Source: Gammaproteobacteria bacterium
GTDB taxonomy: Bacteria; Pseudomonadota; Gammaproteobacteria; Immundisolibacterales; Immundisolibacteraceae
Assembly: GCA_003526065.1 (NCBI GenBank)
Contig: DQBD01000086.1
Location: 2,653-22,743 of the forward strand
Length of the DNA: 20,091 nt
Reading direction: 5' to 3'
Position numbers and translations under genes: made by a program. Below the pieces are notes generated by a model. The model made no database searches. It saw only the letters and a program-made list of their open reading frames with translations, and was not told the origin of the DNA. Shown in pieces: positions 3,469 to 20,091 of the stretch (position 1 is the first letter of the stretch; each line of letters opens with the position of its first letter).

Positions 3469-4626
3469 ATGGGTACCCTGGAACGTTTGTCGGTGAATCC
3501 GGCCCCGCGCCGTTATTCCGAGGACGACGTGAGGCGTGCCGCACGCAACATGCTTGTGGGCGGGTGCGGCATGAAGGCCGGCGACGAGGTGCTGATCCTG
3601 AACGAGAACGGCATCACGGAAGCGGCGGTGTCGGACGTCATCGAGGACGAGGCGCGCAAGCTCGGTGGGCGCGTCCACGTGATGTGGACCGACACGGTCA
3701 AGGGGCCGGAGGACATGCCGCCGTCGGTGGTGAAGGCCTTCGAGTCGCCGGATGTGACGGTGTTCAACCACATGATCGCCGGCGTGCTGCGGATGGTTCC
3801 GTTCAACGGTCGCGGCATGAAGATGCTGAATTTCCTGCAGACCTGGGATCAGCTCGGGTCGCCGTTCGGGCAGGTGCCGTACACCGTCTGGTTGGAGGTG
3901 CTCAAGAACCTGGGGCCACGCCTGGGACAGGCCAGACAGTGGCGTATCACGTGTCCGCTGGGCAGTGATTTCAGCGGGACCATCGCGCCGCCCGGGCAGT
4001 CGCCGAAGCCGGCCAAGGCCGATGCGCCGAAGGCGGAAGACGCCAAGGCGACCGGGGACGGTTTCACCCTGCGCACCTTCCCGCTGGGAGTGTGTCAGGT
4101 GTTCGACAGCATGCAGGCCAGTGGACGTCTGGCGGTGCGCTGGCTGACGCCGTCGGGTATCCATGTGTTCGAGCCCAACGGCATTGCGCTGCCCAGCCCG
4201 GTCATGATCGAGATCGAGAACGGCCGCATCACCGGTTTCGACGGCGATGCCGAGGCGGTGTCGCAGTTGCGCGCCTACATGGAAAAGTGTGGCGGCGAGA
4301 TGGGCAAGGAGCCCTACCTGGTCAACTCCTGGCACGCCGGCATCAATCCTCGCTGCGGCGTCACCGCGGGTCCGGATCAGGGGCTCGACCAGTGGATGTA
4401 CATGGTGCACGCCAATCCGCGGATCGTGCATTTCCACACCATCGGCGCCGTGCAGCCGGGCGAGATGTCGATTCCGGTGGTCGATCCGACCATTGAGTTC
4501 GATGGCGAGAAGCTGTGGGACAAGGGGCGCTTCGTGTTCCTGGACCAGCCCGCGCTGCGCGAGAAAGTGCGCGCTCACGGTGATCCGGATTTCGCCTTCG
4601 AGCACGAACTCGAGATTGGCGTCTGA
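3469..4626 (+). CDS. NicX-like / aminopeptidase T (M29)-like metalloenzyme of unknown substrate
   Basis: This 385-residue soluble protein resembles NicX, the iron-dependent 2,5-dihydroxypyridine 5,6-dioxygenase, which shares its fold with M29 aminopeptidases. Matching blocks are GSDFSG (165-170), PVMIEIENGRITGFDG (244-259) and NSWHAGINPR (286-295), followed by a C-terminal IPVVDPTIEFDG (335-346). Comparing from memory, the three NicX iron ligands (His, His, Asp) fall on S287, E332 and S334 here. Nearby H289, H314, H321, H323 and E332 could supply a different metal site. A Lys/Ala/Pro-rich linker at about 174-198 is an insert. The start is firm: GAGGAGG at 3455-3461, seven bases from the ATG. 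It heads a cluster with a DszB-like protein, a flavin reductase and an SRPBCC protein. The substrate is unknown; a hydrolase rather than a dioxygenase is possible. Confidence 0.75.
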   Translation: MGTLERLSVNPAPRRYSEDDVRRAARNMLVGGCGMKAGDEVLILNENGITEAAVSDVIEDEARKLGGRVHVMWTDTVKGPEDMPPSVVKAFESPDVTVFNHMIAGVLRMVPFNGRGMKMLNFLQTWDQLGSPFGQVPYTVWLEVLKNLGPRLGQARQWRITCPLGSDFSGTIAPPGQSPKPAKADAPKAEDAKATGDGFTLRTFPLGVCQVFDSMQASGRLAVRWLTPSGIHVFEPNGIALPSPVMIEIENGRITGFDGDAEAVSQLRAYMEKCGGEMGKEPYLVNSWHAGINPRCGVTAGPDQGLDQWMYMVHANPRIVHFHTIGAVQPGEMSIPVVDPTIEFDGEKLWDKGRFVFLDQPALREKVRAHGDPDFAFEHELEIGV

Positions 4627-4670
4627 GACGCTCCGTTACCGCACCAACTTTTTCAAGGAAGCTAGACCGC

Positions 4671-5723
4671 ATGTCCCGCACCATCTGGTACACCCGCTGT
4701 CCGGTGCCGACCGCCTCGGGCGTCGCCTACCAGCTCAAGCTGTTCGACAGCGAGTTTGCCGGCACCGATTGCGCGGTGCGCAACATCAAGGAACTGGGTC
4801 GCGAGCAGGCGAATACCCACTTCGCCCACACGCTGGCGGACTCCTTTCGCGAGGGGGGCGGGTCACCGCCGGTGTGGGCGCGCTCGCGTGGTGCGGACAC
4901 CTCGCTGCTGGGTATCAGCTTCGTCGAGGAAACACTGGGACTGTTCGTGCGTGCGGATGATGCCATCGACTCGGTGCGTGATCTGGCCGGCAAGCGGCTG
5001 GCGCTGCCCGTGTGGCCCGATCTGATCATGAACTTTTTCCGCTTCGCCGCGCAGAAGGCCTTTGTGTCGGCGCTGGAGCTCCACGGCTTGGGTGAAGGGG
5101 ACGCACAGTTTGTGGATGTGGTGGAGACCGGCGACCACCATGACCTGATCAACCCCGGCTTCGCAGACGCCCAGACCCGGCAGCAGCCGTCGTATTACCA
5201 CTGTCAGCTGCGCGCGCTGCTCGACGGCAAGGTGGACGCGTTCTTCGCCAAGGGCGGCGAGATCGCGGCCATGCAGCGTGAGTCCGGCGGCGGCATTCGC
5301 ATGCTGTACAACCTGATCGAGGCCAAGCCGCTGTGGGCCAAGGTCAACAACGCCACGCCGCGGTTGCTGACGGTCAGCAACTCGTTGGTGCGCGAGCGCC
5401 CGGACGCGGTCGTGCGCTATGCGCGCATCCTGCTGAAGGCCGCCACCTGGGCGGCGCAACCGCAGAACACGGCGGAGGCCACTGCCGCCATGGCGCGCGA
5501 GACCGGCGTCACGCCGGCCGATATCGACACCTACTACACCGCCGATATTCACCAGAAACTGAAGCCGGAACTGAGTGTGCGGCTGATCGAGACGCTGGAG
5601 GTCATGAAAAGCTTCCTGCACTCGCATGGCTTCATCGAGCAGAACTTTTCGACCCGGGACTGGTTGGCCACCGACCTGCTGCGCGAGGCGTACGCGGCCG
5701 AGGGCATCCCCTGGGTCGATTGA
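4671..5723 (+). CDS. DszB-like protein (2'-hydroxybiphenyl-2-sulfinate desulfinase homologue)
   Basis: This 350-residue protein has the periplasmic-binding-protein-like fold of the NrtA/SsuA/DszB superfamily. It has no signal peptide, so it is likely a cytoplasmic enzyme rather than a transport protein. It matches DszB (about 365 residues), which removes sulfite from an aryl sulfinate. YTRCPVP at the N terminus mirrors the DszB segment holding catalytic Cys27. H50 in THF and R60 in SFREGGG sit ten apart, as His60 and Arg70 do in DszB. LLGISFVEETLGLFVRADD and DLAGKRLALP also align. The Cys-His-Arg set is thus present as C10, H50 and R60. An AAGGAA ribosome binding site lies ten bases before the ATG, and the preceding gene ends 44 bases upstream. 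The true substrate is unknown; desulfination is inferred from homology. Confidence 0.8.
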   Translation: MSRTIWYTRCPVPTASGVAYQLKLFDSEFAGTDCAVRNIKELGREQANTHFAHTLADSFREGGGSPPVWARSRGADTSLLGISFVEETLGLFVRADDAIDSVRDLAGKRLALPVWPDLIMNFFRFAAQKAFVSALELHGLGEGDAQFVDVVETGDHHDLINPGFADAQTRQQPSYYHCQLRALLDGKVDAFFAKGGEIAAMQRESGGGIRMLYNLIEAKPLWAKVNNATPRLLTVSNSLVRERPDAVVRYARILLKAATWAAQPQNTAEATAAMARETGVTPADIDTYYTADIHQKLKPELSVRLIETLEVMKSFLHSHGFIEQNFSTRDWLATDLLREAYAAEGIPWVD

Positions 5724-5761
5724 TCACCTCATTTCCTCCACAGCACGATCAGGGAGCCAGC

Positions 5762-6250
5762 ATGACCAGTCCGCTCGACCCCAAGGCCCTGCGCCAGGTG
5801 TTCGGCCAGTTTTGCACCGGGGTCACCGCGGTGTGTGCCAGTGATGCCGACGGTCGGCGTTACGGCATCACCGTCAACTCGTTCAGTTCCCTGTCGCTGG
5901 ATCCGCCGCTGGCGCTGTTCGCGCTGGTGCGCGAGTCCGAGACGCTGAAAGTCATTCAGGCCGCGGGCACTTTCAGCGTCAACATCCTGGCGCAGTCGCA
6001 GCAGGACGTCTCGAACGGTCTGGCCAAGAAGGGCGGTCCGGAGAAGATGGACGCGGTGCCGACCCGCACGGGCGTCACCGGCGCGCCCATCATCGAGGGC
6101 ACCATCGGCTATCTGGACTGCACGTTGTACGCCGAGTACGACGGTGGCGATCACGTCATCGTGGTTGGCGAGATCAAGCAGGCGGCGGTGGGTGAGGCGC
6201 TGCCGCCGCTGCTGTATTTCCGCAGCGGCTACCAGACGTTGCCGGCCTGA
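5762..6250 (+). CDS. Flavin reductase-like, FMN-binding domain protein
   Basis: A 162-residue protein of the HpaC/DszD-type flavin reductase family, which uses NAD(P)H to reduce free FMN or FAD, usually for a partner two-component monooxygenase. Family features seen are the opening FGQFCTGVTAVCA, the flavin-binding NSFSSLSLDPPLALFAL, TFSVNILAQSQQ, and the C-terminal GDHVIVVGEI followed by LLYFRSGY. It starts 38 bases after the DszB-like gene with AGGGAG ahead of the ATG, so it is almost certainly in the same operon. In the dibenzothiophene system a flavin reductase also serves beside DszB, but there the partner monooxygenases DszA and DszC are needed. No such monooxygenase is in this window, so the partner is either elsewhere or the reduced flavin serves another enzyme of the cluster. 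Confidence 0.93.
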   Translation: MTSPLDPKALRQVFGQFCTGVTAVCASDADGRRYGITVNSFSSLSLDPPLALFALVRESETLKVIQAAGTFSVNILAQSQQDVSNGLAKKGGPEKMDAVPTRTGVTGAPIIEGTIGYLDCTLYAEYDGGDHVIVVGEIKQAAVGEALPPLLYFRSGYQTLPA

Positions 6251-6754: not shown

Positions 6755-6823
6755 CGCCGGCAGGCCTCGTGCGCTTGCGCTCGAATGCGACGCAATCCCT
6801 TCCCACCTCGCCGAACTGCGCCG

Positions 6824-8248
6824 ATGATCATTCCCGTCATTCTGTCTGGTGGTGCCGGTACGCGGCTTTGGCCCCTGTCGCGCGAGTTGTACCCGAAGCA
6901 GTTCCTGCCGCTGGTGGCCGAGCGCAGCCTGTTGCAGGAGACGGCGTTGCGGCTGCGTGGGCTGCCCCAGGCGCAGGCCCCGCTGGTGGTGTGCAACGAG
7001 GAACACCGTTTCCTGGTCGCCGAGCAGTTGCGTCAGGTGGATGCGGGCGGCGGCCACATTCTGCTCGAGCCGGCGGCCCGCAACACCGCGCCCGCGGTGG
7101 CGCTGGCCGCGTTGCACGCCCAGCGCCAGGGTAACGGTGATGCCCTGCTGCTGGTGCTGCCGTCGGATCATGTGATCGCTGACCCGGCGGCCTTGCAGCA
7201 GGCCGTACTGGCGGGCGAGCCGTCGGCGCGCGACGGTGCGTTAGTGACGTTTGGTGTCGTTCCCACGCGTGCCGAGACCGGCTACGGGTATATCCACGTC
7301 GGAGATCCGCTGACGCCCGGCGGCCCGGCGAAGCAGGTACGGGCGTTCGTGGAAAAACCGGATGCCACGCGTGCCGCGGGATATCTCGCCAGCGGCGAGT
7401 ACTTGTGGAACGGCGGCATGTTTCTGTTCACCGCGGGCGCCTACCTGACGGAACTCGAGCGCCACGCACCGGCTATTTTGGCTGCCTGTCGCGCGGCCTG
7501 TGATGACCTGCAAGCGGATCTCGACTTCGTGCGCGTGGCGCGCGAGCCGTTCCTGACGGCGCCGACCGATTCGGTCGACTATGCCGTCATGGAGCACACC
7601 GATCGGGCCGTCGTTGTGCCGCTGGATGCGGGCTGGAGCGACGTAGGCTCCTGGGATGCCTTGCTCGATGTGCAGGCGGCCGATGCGGGCGGCAATGTGA
7701 TTCGTGGCGATGTGCTGGCCGAGGACGTCAGTGGCAGCCTCATTCACAGCGAGTCGCGGCTGGTCGCGGCACTGGGTGTGCGTGACCATGTGATTGTGGA
7801 AACCGCCGACGCGGTGCTGGTTGCCGACCGTGCACGCGCGCAGGACGTCAAGCGCCTGGTGGAACGCCTGAAGGCGCAGCGACGGGACGAGTCGATGGTG
7901 CATCGCCAGGTGCTGCGGCCGTGGGGATCCTATGAAGGGCTGGTCCGTAGTGAGCGGTTCCAGGTCAAGCGGATCGTGGTGCGTCCGGGCGCCAGCCTGT
8001 CCTTGCAGATGCATCATCACCGCGCCGAGCATTGGGTCGTGGTCAAGGGGACCGCGCGGGTGACCTGCGCCGACCAGGTGCGGATGCTGTCCGAGGACCA
8101 GTCCACCTACATCCCCATCGGTTCGGTGCACCGGTTGGAGAATCCCGGTCGCATCGACCTGGAGATCATCGAGGTGCAGTCCGGCAGCTACCTGGGCGAG
8201 GACGACATCGTGCGGCTCGAGGACCACTACGGTCGAAGCGGGGCCTGA
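6824..8248 (+). CDS. manC: Mannose-1-phosphate guanylyltransferase / mannose-6-phosphate isomerase, bifunctional
   Basis: This 474-residue type II enzyme makes GDP-mannose from mannose 1-phosphate and GTP, and its C-terminal cupin domain interconverts fructose and mannose 6-phosphates. The N-terminal nucleotidyltransferase shows the pyrophosphorylase signature at residues 9-20 (GGAGTRLWPLSR), EPAARNTAP at 82-90 and FVEKP at 175-179. LWNGGMF follows. The isomerase part, from about residue 345 to the end, has RPWGSYE, a KRIVVRPG strand and the metal-binding QMHHHRAEHW. Length fits E. coli ManC and Pseudomonas AlgA. An in-frame ATG 13 codons upstream (6785) exists, but the family begins at MIIPVILSGG, so 6824 is chosen although the ribosome binding site is weak. 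GDP-mannose would feed the glycosyltransferase downstream; the two genes overlap by one base. Confidence 0.96.
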   Translation: MIIPVILSGGAGTRLWPLSRELYPKQFLPLVAERSLLQETALRLRGLPQAQAPLVVCNEEHRFLVAEQLRQVDAGGGHILLEPAARNTAPAVALAALHAQRQGNGDALLLVLPSDHVIADPAALQQAVLAGEPSARDGALVTFGVVPTRAETGYGYIHVGDPLTPGGPAKQVRAFVEKPDATRAAGYLASGEYLWNGGMFLFTAGAYLTELERHAPAILAACRAACDDLQADLDFVRVAREPFLTAPTDSVDYAVMEHTDRAVVVPLDAGWSDVGSWDALLDVQAADAGGNVIRGDVLAEDVSGSLIHSESRLVAALGVRDHVIVETADAVLVADRARAQDVKRLVERLKAQRRDESMVHRQVLRPWGSYEGLVRSERFQVKRIVVRPGASLSLQMHHHRAEHWVVVKGTARVTCADQVRMLSEDQSTYIPIGSVHRLENPGRIDLEIIEVQSGSYLGEDDIVRLEDHYGRSGA

Positions 8249-10736: not shown

Positions 10737-11909
10737 ATGCGAGAAAAAATCAGGATCGCGATCGTAGGTGTCGGCAATTGCGCCAGTTCGCTGGTGCAGG
10801 GTGTTCAGTACTACCGCAGCCGGGATCCTGAGCAGGCCATCGGCCTGATGCACTGGGACATCGGTGGTTATGCACCGGGCGACATCGAGGTGGTGGCGGC
10901 GTTCGATATCGACAGTCGCAAGGTGGGTCGCGACGTGTCCGAGGCGATCTTTGCGCCGCCCAACTGCACCACTGTTTTCTGCAGCGAGGTGCCCCCCACG
11001 GGCGCCATCGTGCGCATGGGGTGTGTGCTGGACGGGTATTCGGAGCACATGGCCGAGCATCCGCCGGAGCGCACGTTCGTGCCGGCTGACGCGGCGCAGC
11101 CCAGTCAGGCCGAGGTGGTGCGGGTCCTGCGCGAATCCGGCGCCGAGATGGTGCTCAATTACCTGCCGGTCGGCTCCGAGGAGGCCACGCGCTTCTATGC
11201 CGCCTGTGCGCTTGAGGCCGGGTGTGGCTTCGTCAACAACATTCCGGTGTTCATCGCCAGTGACCCGCAGTGGGCCGCCCGTTTCGAGCAGGCCGGCCTG
11301 CCGATCATCGGTGACGACATCAAGGCGCAGCTGGGGGCCACCATCACCCACCGGGCGCTGACCGACCTGTGCCGCAAGCGTGGCGTGACCATCGATCGCA
11401 CCTATCAGCTGAACACGGGCGGCAACACCGACTTTCTGAACATGCTCAACCTGAGCCGGCTGAAGTCGAAAAAGCGCTCCAAGACCGAGGCCGTGCAGTC
11501 GGTGGCGGCGAGTCGCTTCGACGACCAGAACATCCACGTCGGCCCGTCCGACTACGTGGCCTGGCAGAACGACAACAAGGTGTGTTTTCTGCGTATCGAG
11601 GGGCGCATGTTCGGCGACGTGCCGTTCAACCTGGAACTTCGGCTGTCGGTGGAGGACTCGCCCAATTCGGCCGGGGTCGCCATCGACACCATCCGTTGCT
11701 GCAAGCTGGCGCTGGATCGTGGCGAGGGCGGCGTGCTGCACCCGCCGTCCGCGTTTTTCTGCAAGCACCCGCCGGTGCAGTACACCGATGATGATGCCTA
11801 TCGCCTGACCGAGGCCTTCATCGACGGCACCTGGAAGGAGAAGCTGGCCGAGGTGGCCGCCCAGCGCGGCGCGGGCGCCGCGGCCCAGGCAACCACCGGC
11901 AGCCGCTGA
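10737..11909 (+). CDS. ino1: myo-Inositol-1-phosphate synthase, actinobacterial type
   Basis: The enzyme converts glucose 6-phosphate to 1D-myo-inositol 3-phosphate with bound NAD+, the only known de novo entry to inositol. At 390 residues it fits the short prokaryotic form rather than the ~510-residue eukaryotic one. Recognisable blocks are the NAD-binding GVGNCASSLVQG near the N terminus, AAFDIDSRKVG, NYLPVGSEEATRFYA, VFIASDPQWA, IIGDDIKAQLGATITHR, QLNTGGNTDFLNML, KKRSKTEAVQS, HVGPSDYVAW, EGRMFGDVPFNLE and DSPNSAGVAID. These match Mycobacterium-type Ino1 closely. GAGG precedes the ATG by a few bases. It follows the glycan cassette by 138 bases and converges with the Rid-family gene. Its product could supply the phosphatidyltransferase at 2785-3378. 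Confidence 0.95.
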   Translation: MREKIRIAIVGVGNCASSLVQGVQYYRSRDPEQAIGLMHWDIGGYAPGDIEVVAAFDIDSRKVGRDVSEAIFAPPNCTTVFCSEVPPTGAIVRMGCVLDGYSEHMAEHPPERTFVPADAAQPSQAEVVRVLRESGAEMVLNYLPVGSEEATRFYAACALEAGCGFVNNIPVFIASDPQWAARFEQAGLPIIGDDIKAQLGATITHRALTDLCRKRGVTIDRTYQLNTGGNTDFLNMLNLSRLKSKKRSKTEAVQSVAASRFDDQNIHVGPSDYVAWQNDNKVCFLRIEGRMFGDVPFNLELRLSVEDSPNSAGVAIDTIRCCKLALDRGEGGVLHPPSAFFCKHPPVQYTDDDAYRLTEAFIDGTWKEKLAEVAAQRGAGAAAQATTGSR

Positions 11910-16911: not shown

Positions 16912-16987
16912 TGGTGCTGGCGGCAGGAGTCGAACCCGCGGCCTGCTGATTACAAATCAGCTGCTCTACCGACTGAGCTACGCCAGC
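16912..16987 (-). tRNA. tRNA-Thr (anticodon UGU)
   Basis: A 76-base cloverleaf folds on the minus strand: 7-bp acceptor stem GCTGGCG/CGCCAGC, D arm GCTC/GAGC, anticodon stem GCTGA/TCAGC with loop TTTGTAA (anticodon TGT), variable AGGCC, T stem GCGGG/CCTGC with TTCGACT loop, and an encoded 3' ACCA. All stems pair, with one G-T in the T stem. It lies between htpG and amtB, as a single tRNA. Confidence 0.97.
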
Positions 16988-17003: not shown

Positions 17004-17041
17004 CACAGCGCCGGCCGGTCATACAGGCAGCCTGACGGGCA

Positions 17042-17081
17042 AAGAAAAAGGGCGGGAAGACCCAAGGTCTTCCCGCCCTTT
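17042..17081 (-). terminator. Intrinsic terminator of glnK-amtB
   Basis: A perfect 16-bp stem (17047-17062 with 17066-17081) encloses a 3-base loop. Read on the minus strand it is followed by a T-run interrupted by one C, the classic rho-independent form. It lies 22 bases past the amtB stop. A short T-run in the stem also gives weak bidirectional potential toward the tRNA side. Confidence 0.92.
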
Positions 17082-17103
17082 GCGTGTCGCAGGACGTGCG
17101 TGC

Positions 17104-18420
17104 TTACAGGTTGTAGCCGCGCTCGTCGTGCAGGGCCAGGTCCAGGCCCTCGGTCTCCTGCTCGGCAGTGACGCGCAGGCCGATCACCAGGTCGAGCACC
17201 TTCAGGATCACGTAGCTGACCACGCCGCTGAAGACCACGCTGACCAGCACGCCCTTGAACTGGATCCACAGCTGTGCAGCTATGTTGAGGCCTTCCTGCG
17301 AGCCGCCCAGGCTGGAGGCCGCGAACACGCCGGTCAGCAGGGCACCGATGATGCCGCCGATGCCGTGCACGCCGAACACGTCCAGCGAGTCGTCATAACC
17401 GAAGGCGCGCTTCATCTTGGTGGCGGCCAGGAAGCACAGCACACCGGCCACGGCGCCGATCACCAGCGCACCCATCGGGCCGACGAAGCCGGACGCCGGG
17501 GTGATGGCGACCAGGCCGGCAACCGCCCCGGAGGCGATGCCCAGCACGCTGGGCTTGCCGTGGCTGATCCACTCGATGAACATCCAGCCCAGCGCCGCGG
17601 CGGCGGTGGCGATCTGCGTCACGGCCATGGCCATGCCGGCGGTGCCGTCGGCGGCGACCGCGCTGCCGGCGTTGAAGCCGAACCAGCCGACCCACAGCAT
17701 GGATGCACCAATCAGGGTGTAGCCGAGGTTATGCGGTGGCATGGCAGTGGTCGGATAGCCCTTGCGGGGCCCCATCACGATGCAGGCCACCAGCGCGGCG
17801 ACACCGGCGTTGATGTGCACCACGGTGCCACCGGCGAAATCCAGCACGCCCCAGTCCCACATCAGGCCGCCGTCACCGCCCCACACCATGTGTGCGGTGG
17901 GCGCGTAGACGATGGTGAACCACAGCGCCATGAACCACAGCATGGCCGAGAACTTCATGCGCTCGGCGAAGGCGCCGACGATCAGCGCCGGTGTGATGAT
18001 GGCAAACGTCATCTGGAAGGTCATGAAGACCGTTTCCGGAATCGTGCCGGTCATGCTGTCCACGGTGACGCCACTCAGGAACGCCAGGCCGAGTCCGCCG
18101 ACGAAGCTGCTGAAATTGGTGACGCCGGCTTCCATGCCGGTGGTGTCGAACGCCAGGCTGTAGCCGTAGATCGCCCACAGCACGGACATCAGCGCGGCCA
18201 TGGCAAAGCACTGCATCAGCACCGACAGGACGTTCTTGCTGCGTACCAGGCCGCCATAGAACAGCGCCAGGCCGGGGATGGTCATGAACAGCACCAGCGC
18301 GGTGGCTGTCAGCATCCATGCCGTATCGCCGGAGTTCAGGGTGTCCTCGGCCAGTGCCAGGCCGGGCATGAACAGACCGGCCGTTGCCGCGGCAAGGCCA
18401 TGTCGCTTCAGGGTTTTCAT
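17104..18420 (-). CDS. amtB: Ammonium transporter AmtB
   Basis: A trimeric inner-membrane channel for ammonium, used under nitrogen limitation and blocked by GlnK. It has 438 residues, including a signal peptide likely cut after A24 (ALA-E), followed by about eleven membrane helices. The conserved pore histidines are H202 in VVHINAG and H352 in FGVHGIGG. Other signatures are ALFYGGLVRSKNVLS, GAFAERMKFSAM, NLGYTLIGASMLWVGWFGFN and the cytoplasmic C-terminal tail with GLDLALHDERGYNL. A GAGGGAG ribosome binding site precedes the ATG. It lies 52 bases after glnK and ends at a strong terminator, so the two form one transcript. Confidence 0.97.
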   Translation of the reverse strand: MKTLKRHGLAAATAGLFMPGLALAEDTLNSGDTAWMLTATALVLFMTIPGLALFYGGLVRSKNVLSVLMQCFAMAALMSVLWAIYGYSLAFDTTGMEAGVTNFSSFVGGLGLAFLSGVTVDSMTGTIPETVFMTFQMTFAIITPALIVGAFAERMKFSAMLWFMALWFTIVYAPTAHMVWGGDGGLMWDWGVLDFAGGTVVHINAGVAALVACIVMGPRKGYPTTAMPPHNLGYTLIGASMLWVGWFGFNAGSAVAADGTAGMAMAVTQIATAAAALGWMFIEWISHGKPSVLGIASGAVAGLVAITPASGFVGPMGALVIGAVAGVLCFLAATKMKRAFGYDDSLDVFGVHGIGGIIGALLTGVFAASSLGGSQEGLNIAAQLWIQFKGVLVSVVFSGVVSYVILKVLDLVIGLRVTAEQETEGLDLALHDERGYNL

Positions 18421-18472
18421 CGATTTGCTCCCTCGCCTAAATGAAATTTTTCATGAGTGTCGCCGTGCGGCG

Positions 18473-19033
<561 letters not shown>

Positions 19034-19040
19034 TCACATC

Positions 19041-19055
19041 GCACCGTATTAGTGC
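19041..19055. promoter_or_regulatory. NtrC-like enhancer site
   Basis: GCAC at 19041-19044 and GTGC at 19052-19055 are separated by seven bases, the GCAC-N7-GTGC pattern of NtrC sites. It sits about 70-80 bases upstream of the -24 element, a usual enhancer distance for RpoN promoters. Only one such site is seen. Confidence 0.6.
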
Positions 19056-19130
19056 ATTCGAATTCCTGGCATGCCCCAGTGTGGGGCGCCAGCGTGAACT
19101 TGATAACGGGTATCGCCGGGAGGCCGCGCC

Positions 19131-19361
19131 ATGACCGATTCCCCGTCCTCGCCTCTGCACTGGTTGCACGGCATCGCCAGCGAGCTGGACGGCCTGCGCA
19201 GCCTTGCCACGGAGAACCTGAGTCAACGTCTGGGCCTGCCCAGTCGTGAGCAGTTCGAGGTGCAGCGGGCCCTGCTGGAAGACGCGCGGACGCGACTGGA
19301 TCGGTTGCAGGGGCAGGTCGACGCGCTGGCCGCACGGTTGGCCCAGCAACAGGCTCCCTGA
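19131..19361 (+). CDS. ubiK: Ubiquinone biosynthesis accessory factor UbiK (BMFP domain, YqiC family)
   Basis: A 76-residue protein with an amphipathic N-terminal helix and a C-terminal coiled coil. Family members trimerise and help the soluble Ubi complex in aerobic ubiquinone synthesis. The signature LGLPSREQFEVQRALLEDAR followed by the Leu-heptad LDRLQGQVDALAARL matches the BMFP domain. GGGAGG precedes the ATG. It lies between amtB-glnK and comM, an order I recall from Pseudomonas, which supports both the identity and the chromosomal origin. Confidence 0.9.
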   Translation: MTDSPSSPLHWLHGIASELDGLRSLATENLSQRLGLPSREQFEVQRALLEDARTRLDRLQGQVDALAARLAQQQAP

Positions 19362-19377
19362 AAGCCGGCGCCGTCGC

Positions 19378-20091
19378 GTGTCGCTGGCAGTTCTGCACAG
19401 TCGCGCCCAGTCCGGCATCGACGCGCCACGGGTCACCATCGAGGCGCACCTGACCGGCGGCCTGCCGGCGCTGTCGCTGGTCGGGCTGCCGGAGACTGCC
19501 GTGCGCGAGGCGCGCGACCGCGTGCGCAGCGCGCTGCTGACGAGCGGGTTCGAGTTTCCGGCCCGTCGCGTCACCATCAACCTGGCGCCGGCCGATCTGC
19601 CGAAGGAGGGTGGGCGCTTCGATCTGGGGATTGCCCTGGCCATTCTGGCCGCTTCCGGCCAGTTGCCGCTGGAGTCTCTGGCCGGCTACGAATTCATCGG
19701 CGAGCTTGGTCTGGGCGGCGAACTGCGGCCGGTACGCGGCGTGCTGCCGGTGGCGTTGCAGGCGCAACAGGTTGGTGCGCAGTTGATCCTGCCGCAGGAC
19801 AACGCCGCCGAGGCGGCGCTGGCGCCTGATCTGCCTGTCTACGGCGCAGCCCATTTGCTGGACGTGTGCGCGCATCTGACCGGCAGTGCGCGATTGCCGA
19901 GGGCCAGCCGGCGAGCCGCGCAGGGCGCGGACGACGGGCCCGATCTGGCCGACGTGCGTGGCCAGCCGGCCGCCCGTCGGGCGTTGGAGATCGCGGCGGC
20001 CGGCGGCGGCGAGTACGCGCTCGAATCGACTCGCTGGAGCAACGGGGTGTTCACACACGCCGTCCTGCGCGGACTGTCGACCAAGGCTGCC
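19378..20091 (+). CDS. comM: ComM/YifB-like protein, 5' part joined to a caspase-like tail at the window end
   Basis: ComM is a hexameric AAA+ helicase that drives branch migration in natural transformation. The start is a GTG 16 bases after ubiK, with SLAVLHSRAQSGIDAP as in E. coli YifB. The N-terminal domain is complete: LVGLPETAVREARDRVRSAL, TINLAPADLPKEGGRFDL, EFIGELGLGGELRPVRG and the linker ADVRGQPAARRALEIAAAGG (ending near 20007). There ComM proteins continue HNLLLIGPPGSGKT; here the frame changes to GEYALESTRWSNGVFTHAVL. So the Walker A motif and everything after it are missing as far as the window shows. The frame is open to the last base (238 codons seen). Either the assembly is chimeric or the gene is truly broken. 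Confidence 0.85.
   Translation, partial: MSLAVLHSRAQSGIDAPRVTIEAHLTGGLPALSLVGLPETAVREARDRVRSALLTSGFEFPARRVTINLAPADLPKEGGRFDLGIALAILAASGQLPLESLAGYEFIGELGLGGELRPVRGVLPVALQAQQVGAQLILPQDNAAEAALAPDLPVYGAAHLLDVCAHLTGSARLPRASRRAAQGADDGPDLADVRGQPAARRALEIAAAGGGEYALESTRWSNGVFTHAVLRGLSTKAA
20008..20091 (+). other. Caspase-like (peptidase C14) C-terminal fragment in the ComM frame
   Basis: The last 28 codons (GEYALESTRWSNGVFTHAVL and eight more) resemble the region just after the catalytic Cys block of bacterial caspase-like proteins, where sequences read like S-x-E-x-x-x-W-x-N-G-V-F-T-x-A-L-L-x-G-L. This has no counterpart in ComM. The upstream part of a caspase domain, including its His and Cys, is absent. 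The join falls in GGC repeats at 20002-20010. Confidence 0.7.

Follow-up and report, generated by a model that had tools for sequence, protein, structure and literature searches.

The comM locus at the right end of the window

The window, the whole stretch of 20,091 bases that was analysed, ends on its right side with amtB, glnK, ubiK, and comM, with htpG before them. The genes next to comM are ordinary (the UbiK model match was under its cut-off). The ComM frame opens with a GTG codon at 19378 and continues on the plus strand for 238 codons up to base 20091, where the window ends without a stop codon having been reached. The features of this region are as follows:

16912-16987, minus strand: tRNA-Thr (TGT), detected with ARAGORN and Rfam, between htpG and amtB
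17104-20006: block of amtB (minus), glnK (minus), ubiK (plus), and comM (plus), collinear with congeners, the collinearity ending at the join (blastn)
19378-20007, plus strand: 5' part of comM/yifB, from the N-terminal ChlI-type domain to ALEIAAAGG; ordinary, assigned by PF13541 and by identity to ComM
19999-20007, plus strand: GCCGGCGGC (Ala-Gly-Gly), the word at the join that appears common to both genes; the residues fit both families, and blastn ends at 20006
20008-20091, plus strand: foreign tail, a piece of a caspase-family (peptidase C14) gene taken from past the catalytic Cys, read in frame and in the sense direction; assigned by residue identity to caspase-family proteins and by the E-values of the last 42 residues

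A 238-aa predicted protein (P0003) is listed with a longest contig of 22,743 bp and represents this same frame, ending with base 20091 and without a stop. The window, at 20,091 bases, would accordingly be one part of a longer contig. We infer from this record that the right end of the window is also the end of the contig, which would place the join about 84 bases from the contig end. That distance is less than the length of a typical short read, and contig ends are places where artefacts collect.

The frame begins as an ordinary ComM

The first ~210 residues of the frame constitute a plain ComM/YifB N-terminal domain. The ChlI domain (PF13541) was matched on residues 21-142 with an E-value of 5.9e-44, covering profile positions 1-121 of 121, in agreement with the original prediction that this domain is intact up to ALEIAAAGG. 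Residues 1-210 resemble the ComM/YifB family of Mg chelatase-like AAA ATPases throughout. Among the loci of the genome collection, the closest belongs to an Immundisolibacter metagenome-assembled genome (L001; 83% identity over the best segment), and the nearest listed protein is a full-length ComM of 505 aa (P0005; 90% identity). Within the nearest genus, ComM of the three genomes shares 83-85% identity with the ComM part of the window, and ComM members assigned to Immundisolibacter by name were also among the listed proteins (P0007 and P0024).

The AAA core that follows in this family could not be recognized in the frame. Of the Mg_chelatase profile (PF01078), positions 1-23 of 207 alone were matched, under the Pfam cut-off, which agrees with the predicted in-frame replacement of the ATPase core. 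No Walker A motif is found past AAAGG: the frame reads GGGEYALES, versus GGHSLL..GPPGAGKT in ComM. Whereas the 120 listed ComM/YifB relatives proceed to Walker A, the frame of the window turns to caspase-like sequence after AAAGG. We attribute the missing Walker A motif and AAA core to a chimeric end.

The last codons resemble caspase-family proteins

After ALEIAAAGG, the frame reads G-EYALESTRWSNGVFTHAVLRGLSTKAA, and the stretch from 20005 to 20091 translates as GGEYALESTRWSNGVFTHAVLRGLSTKAA. When the last 42 residues were searched against a database of 5.8 billion proteins, the matches were the frame's own protein, a 132-aa fragment (P0004; E 1.4e-6), and six proteins of 820-1271 aa (P0125-P0130; E 2e-6 to 1.5e-5); this query takes in 13 residues from the ComM side, among which Ala-Gly-Gly also fits caspases. 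The tail is identical to each of these seven caspase-family proteins at 21 of 29 residues, with the qualification that the seven are the matches of the 42-residue searches and hence selected for likeness. Against ComM, identity was 3-7 of 29 residues in 117 proteins of the 120 listed (the pattern used for this comparison missed the other three, which were left unscored), and 5 of 29 in P0005, the nearest ComM. The last codons could thus not be tied to ComM by protein comparison, and the alternative that the tail is ComM was rejected on these counts. A copy from elsewhere in the window was rejected as well, as the tail has only words of 11-12 bases in common with the window beyond itself.

Peptidase C14 (PF00656) is among the domains listed for at least five of the six long proteins. 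Two of the six come with source names, one as “WD40 repeat protein/uncharacterized caspase-like protein” and the other as “WD40 repeat protein”. A match to PF00656 was found in P0129 on residues 553-817 with 61.2 bits (cut-off 21.4), while the fragment P0004 reached only 11.9 bits, on profile positions 161-231 of 233. The 29-residue tail by itself gave no match in Pfam at E-values up to 10. A tblastn search of plasmids with the tail yielded five records at 43-58% identity, each of them annotated “caspase family protein”; owing to the short query (29 aa), their E-values were weak (0.8-8).

In the six long proteins, the motifs FFAGHG and MDTCHSG, which we take to contain the catalytic His and Cys of the caspase family, lie about 125 and 73 residues upstream of the tail, respectively; counted from EYALES, FAGH starts 124-125 and DTC 73-74 residues earlier. 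Since both motifs sit upstream of the region that corresponds to the tail, neither is present in the 29 codons after which the window ends. The similarity is thus to the part of peptidase C14 that follows the catalytic Cys, as was originally proposed with the attribution to the C-terminal part of a caspase domain. Prokaryotic WD40-caspase-family proteins and the last 29 codons agree over this region, but the window holds only ~28 residues of such a protein, past the FAGH and DTC motifs and with no WD40 part. By sequence comparison, the tail belongs with caspase-family genes, in a region downstream of the catalytic Cys, and is not ComM.

The composition of the tail (68% G+C, 83% GC3) shows no clear difference from that of comM (72% and 84%) or from the G+C content of the window (68%), and speaks neither for nor against a foreign donor.

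Homology to congeners ends at the join

Gapped blastn alignments to three loci of the genus Immundisolibacter all ended at base 20006. Two of these (L093 and L094) aligned over 17104-20006 with 80.1% and 80.0% identity, respectively, and L001 aligned in two pieces, with 83.8% identity over 17034-19011 and 79.4% over 19150-20006. When compared in bins of 30 bases, identity to L093 and L094 was 67-90% before the join and 20-40% past it, except for one bin at 33-40% in a linker about 90 bases before ALEIAAAGG; the ungapped bins of L001 were out of register upstream of this linker and are uninformative there. Homology thus ends abruptly close to the presumptive contig end.

All three congener loci continue directly with HSLLMLGPPGAGKT after ALEIAAAGG. 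A comM gene was found in each of the three genomes, as open frames of 555 aa and 529 aa and a third of 300 aa that is cut by a contig end. A Walker A motif (G-x4-GK[ST]) lies directly past the join point in 120 of 120 ComM relatives (the best 120 of 5787), and the same continuation was found in 17 of 80 loci, these being the ones that matched a strict pattern (the other 63 were unscored). The contig of the nearest Immundisolibacter genome (L001, 1-4054) itself ends inside comM, about 250 bases past the join point, with normal ComM sequence.

The Ala-Gly-Gly at the join is encoded by GCC GGC GGC at 19999-20007, and GGC triplets occupy 20002-20010, which confirms that the join sits in a run of such triplets. 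In ComM relatives, the commonest reading at this point is AAAGGH, and in the seven caspase relatives it is [AS]SAGGAEY, so that AGG fits both families. Judging from these protein readings, from which the exact shared length is estimated, the true crossover would lie somewhere within about 19999-20010. The switch itself was thus correctly predicted, with its boundary placed a few bases early at 20002, as ComM sequence is kept to about 20007. No signature of a mobile element was seen at the join, where 84 bases could not show one.

Searches for a second fusion and for a donor

No second join of ComM and caspase sequence was found among candidate proteins of 131-416 and about 597-1898 aa, in a search that reaches proteins with exact shared words of 5 residues; proteins of ~417-596 aa fell outside the tail search. 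The words of the tail were found in none of the 120 listed ComM relatives (the best 120 of 5787).

Within the genus, PF00656 was detected in 0 of 3 genomes, whose completeness is not established (1 of 14 control genomes was positive). The caspase fragment P0004 gave only weak matches in two of these three genomes (E 0.06-0.27), and the tail had no match in the genome of L001, where an empty answer carries no weight. Among 369 genomes of the class, the tail matched two at 52% identity each, within open frames of 1247 aa and 1392 aa; these are too distant to be the donor. No donor was found among plasmids either, where P0129 matched 309 records, all with best matches below 60% identity. An exact search with 24 bases, which covered viral contigs only, returned no matches.

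Origin of the join

From these comparisons, we consider it very probable that the contig end is chimeric, and that comM was joined to a scrap of a caspase gene through an error in a read, an amplicon, or an assembly overlap. In that case, the sequence to about base 20007 would be the correct comM of an Immundisolibacter-like gammaproteobacterium, and what the consensus shows from there on would be a piece of an unrelated gene of the WD40-caspase type, presumably contributed by some other organism in that sample. Such a switch may have come about by a jump at the GC-rich word GCCGGCGGC that formed a chimeric read or amplicon, or by an assembler overlap at that word; since read support is low at contig ends, the wrong molecule could have supplied the last ~84 bases. 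This reading is favoured because homology breaks at the same base in all three congener loci while their comM continues, because all of the listed relatives (the best 120 of 5787) have Walker A after the join point, because the join falls at an in-phase, GC-rich word a short distance from the presumptive contig end, and because the fusion was not encountered a second time and PF00656 was not detected in the three congener genomes. It also conforms to the known artefact of contig ends and reads that are joined at short shared words, with which the window shares the unrelated last tens of bases and the GC-rich word, and from which no differing feature was found. The original prediction, which regarded a chimeric contig end as the likelier cause, is thereby supported.

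Three points count against an artefact: the lack of a difference in G+C and GC3 across the join, the preservation of frame and sense, which by our estimate a random join achieves about once in six, and the donor searches, which gave no exact match. The first two would equally suit a real rearrangement, in which comM and a caspase-family gene, or a piece of one, were joined in frame in the strain or in part of its population, giving a ComM without ATPase and with a caspase-derived tail; it is general knowledge that short shared words also mediate illegitimate recombination. However, the in-frame appearance does not call for selection, since the two genes have their shared Ala-Gly-Gly codons in the same phase. 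With comM continuing normally in the relatives examined, no further case among the proteins searched over the lengths given above, no PF00656 in the three genus genomes, and the join so near to the presumptive contig end, we regard a real rearrangement as very improbable. A continuation of ComM that has diverged or shifted in frame, and that resembles caspases by chance, might explain why the tail has no Pfam match of its own and why the plasmid matches are weak. This we hold to be practically negligible: a chance likeness would have to account for the residue counts in favour of the caspase-family proteins (selected as these were) over the 117 ComM proteins and for E-values of about 1e-6 in a database of 5.8 billion sequences, with a query that includes 13 ComM-side residues. 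In our view, the drop in DNA identity past the join and the tail identity counts may be taken to refute it already.

Within the preferred reading of a chimeric contig end, the assembler could also have taken a wrong branch of the assembly graph at a GC-rich stretch common to two genes, starting from reads that were themselves true and without any chimeric molecule. GGC-type words are common in the window, where GCCGGCGGC occurs 3 times on the plus strand and 2 times on the minus strand, and GGCGGCGGC 9 times and once, respectively (overlaps counted). The word that fits both genes, however, seems to be about 9-12 bases long, which is shorter than the usual assembly k-mers. A chimeric molecule or read therefore fits better, and the wrong branch appears an unlikely route.

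The chimeric end of comM is almost certainly an artefact and not new biology. The original prediction had also raised the loss of ComM, if real, as consequential for transformation and for cell-death systems; this found no support. With a real join, too, the visible part would lie past the His and Cys motifs of the caspase family, and nothing was seen that bears on either process. What follows is a caution only. A predicted protein of 238 residues in the public set (P0003), a “ComM with a caspase tail”, could pass for a domain fusion. Fusion surveys should set aside any join that lies less than about 100 bases from the end of a contig.

Other genes in the window

Listed open reading frames that cross the tRNA-Thr gene at 16912-16987 are likely spurious. 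Further upstream, 3469-6250 contains adjacent, co-directional genes for a 385-aa protein that matched nothing in NCBIfam at E 1e-5, an SsuA-like substrate-binding protein, and an HsaB/HpaC-type flavin reductase, the latter two assigned by matches under the model cut-offs. Our guess is that these are perhaps part of a cluster for the degradation of aromatic compounds or heterocycles. A mannose-1-phosphate guanylyltransferase/mannose-6-phosphate isomerase is encoded at 6785-8248. On the plus strand, 10737-11909 encodes an inositol-3-phosphate synthase-like protein that aligned with the entire mycothiol_INO1 model but stayed under its cut-off, with 439 bits against 638. Our impression is that this protein is unusual company for a region that holds the enzyme at 6785-8248.
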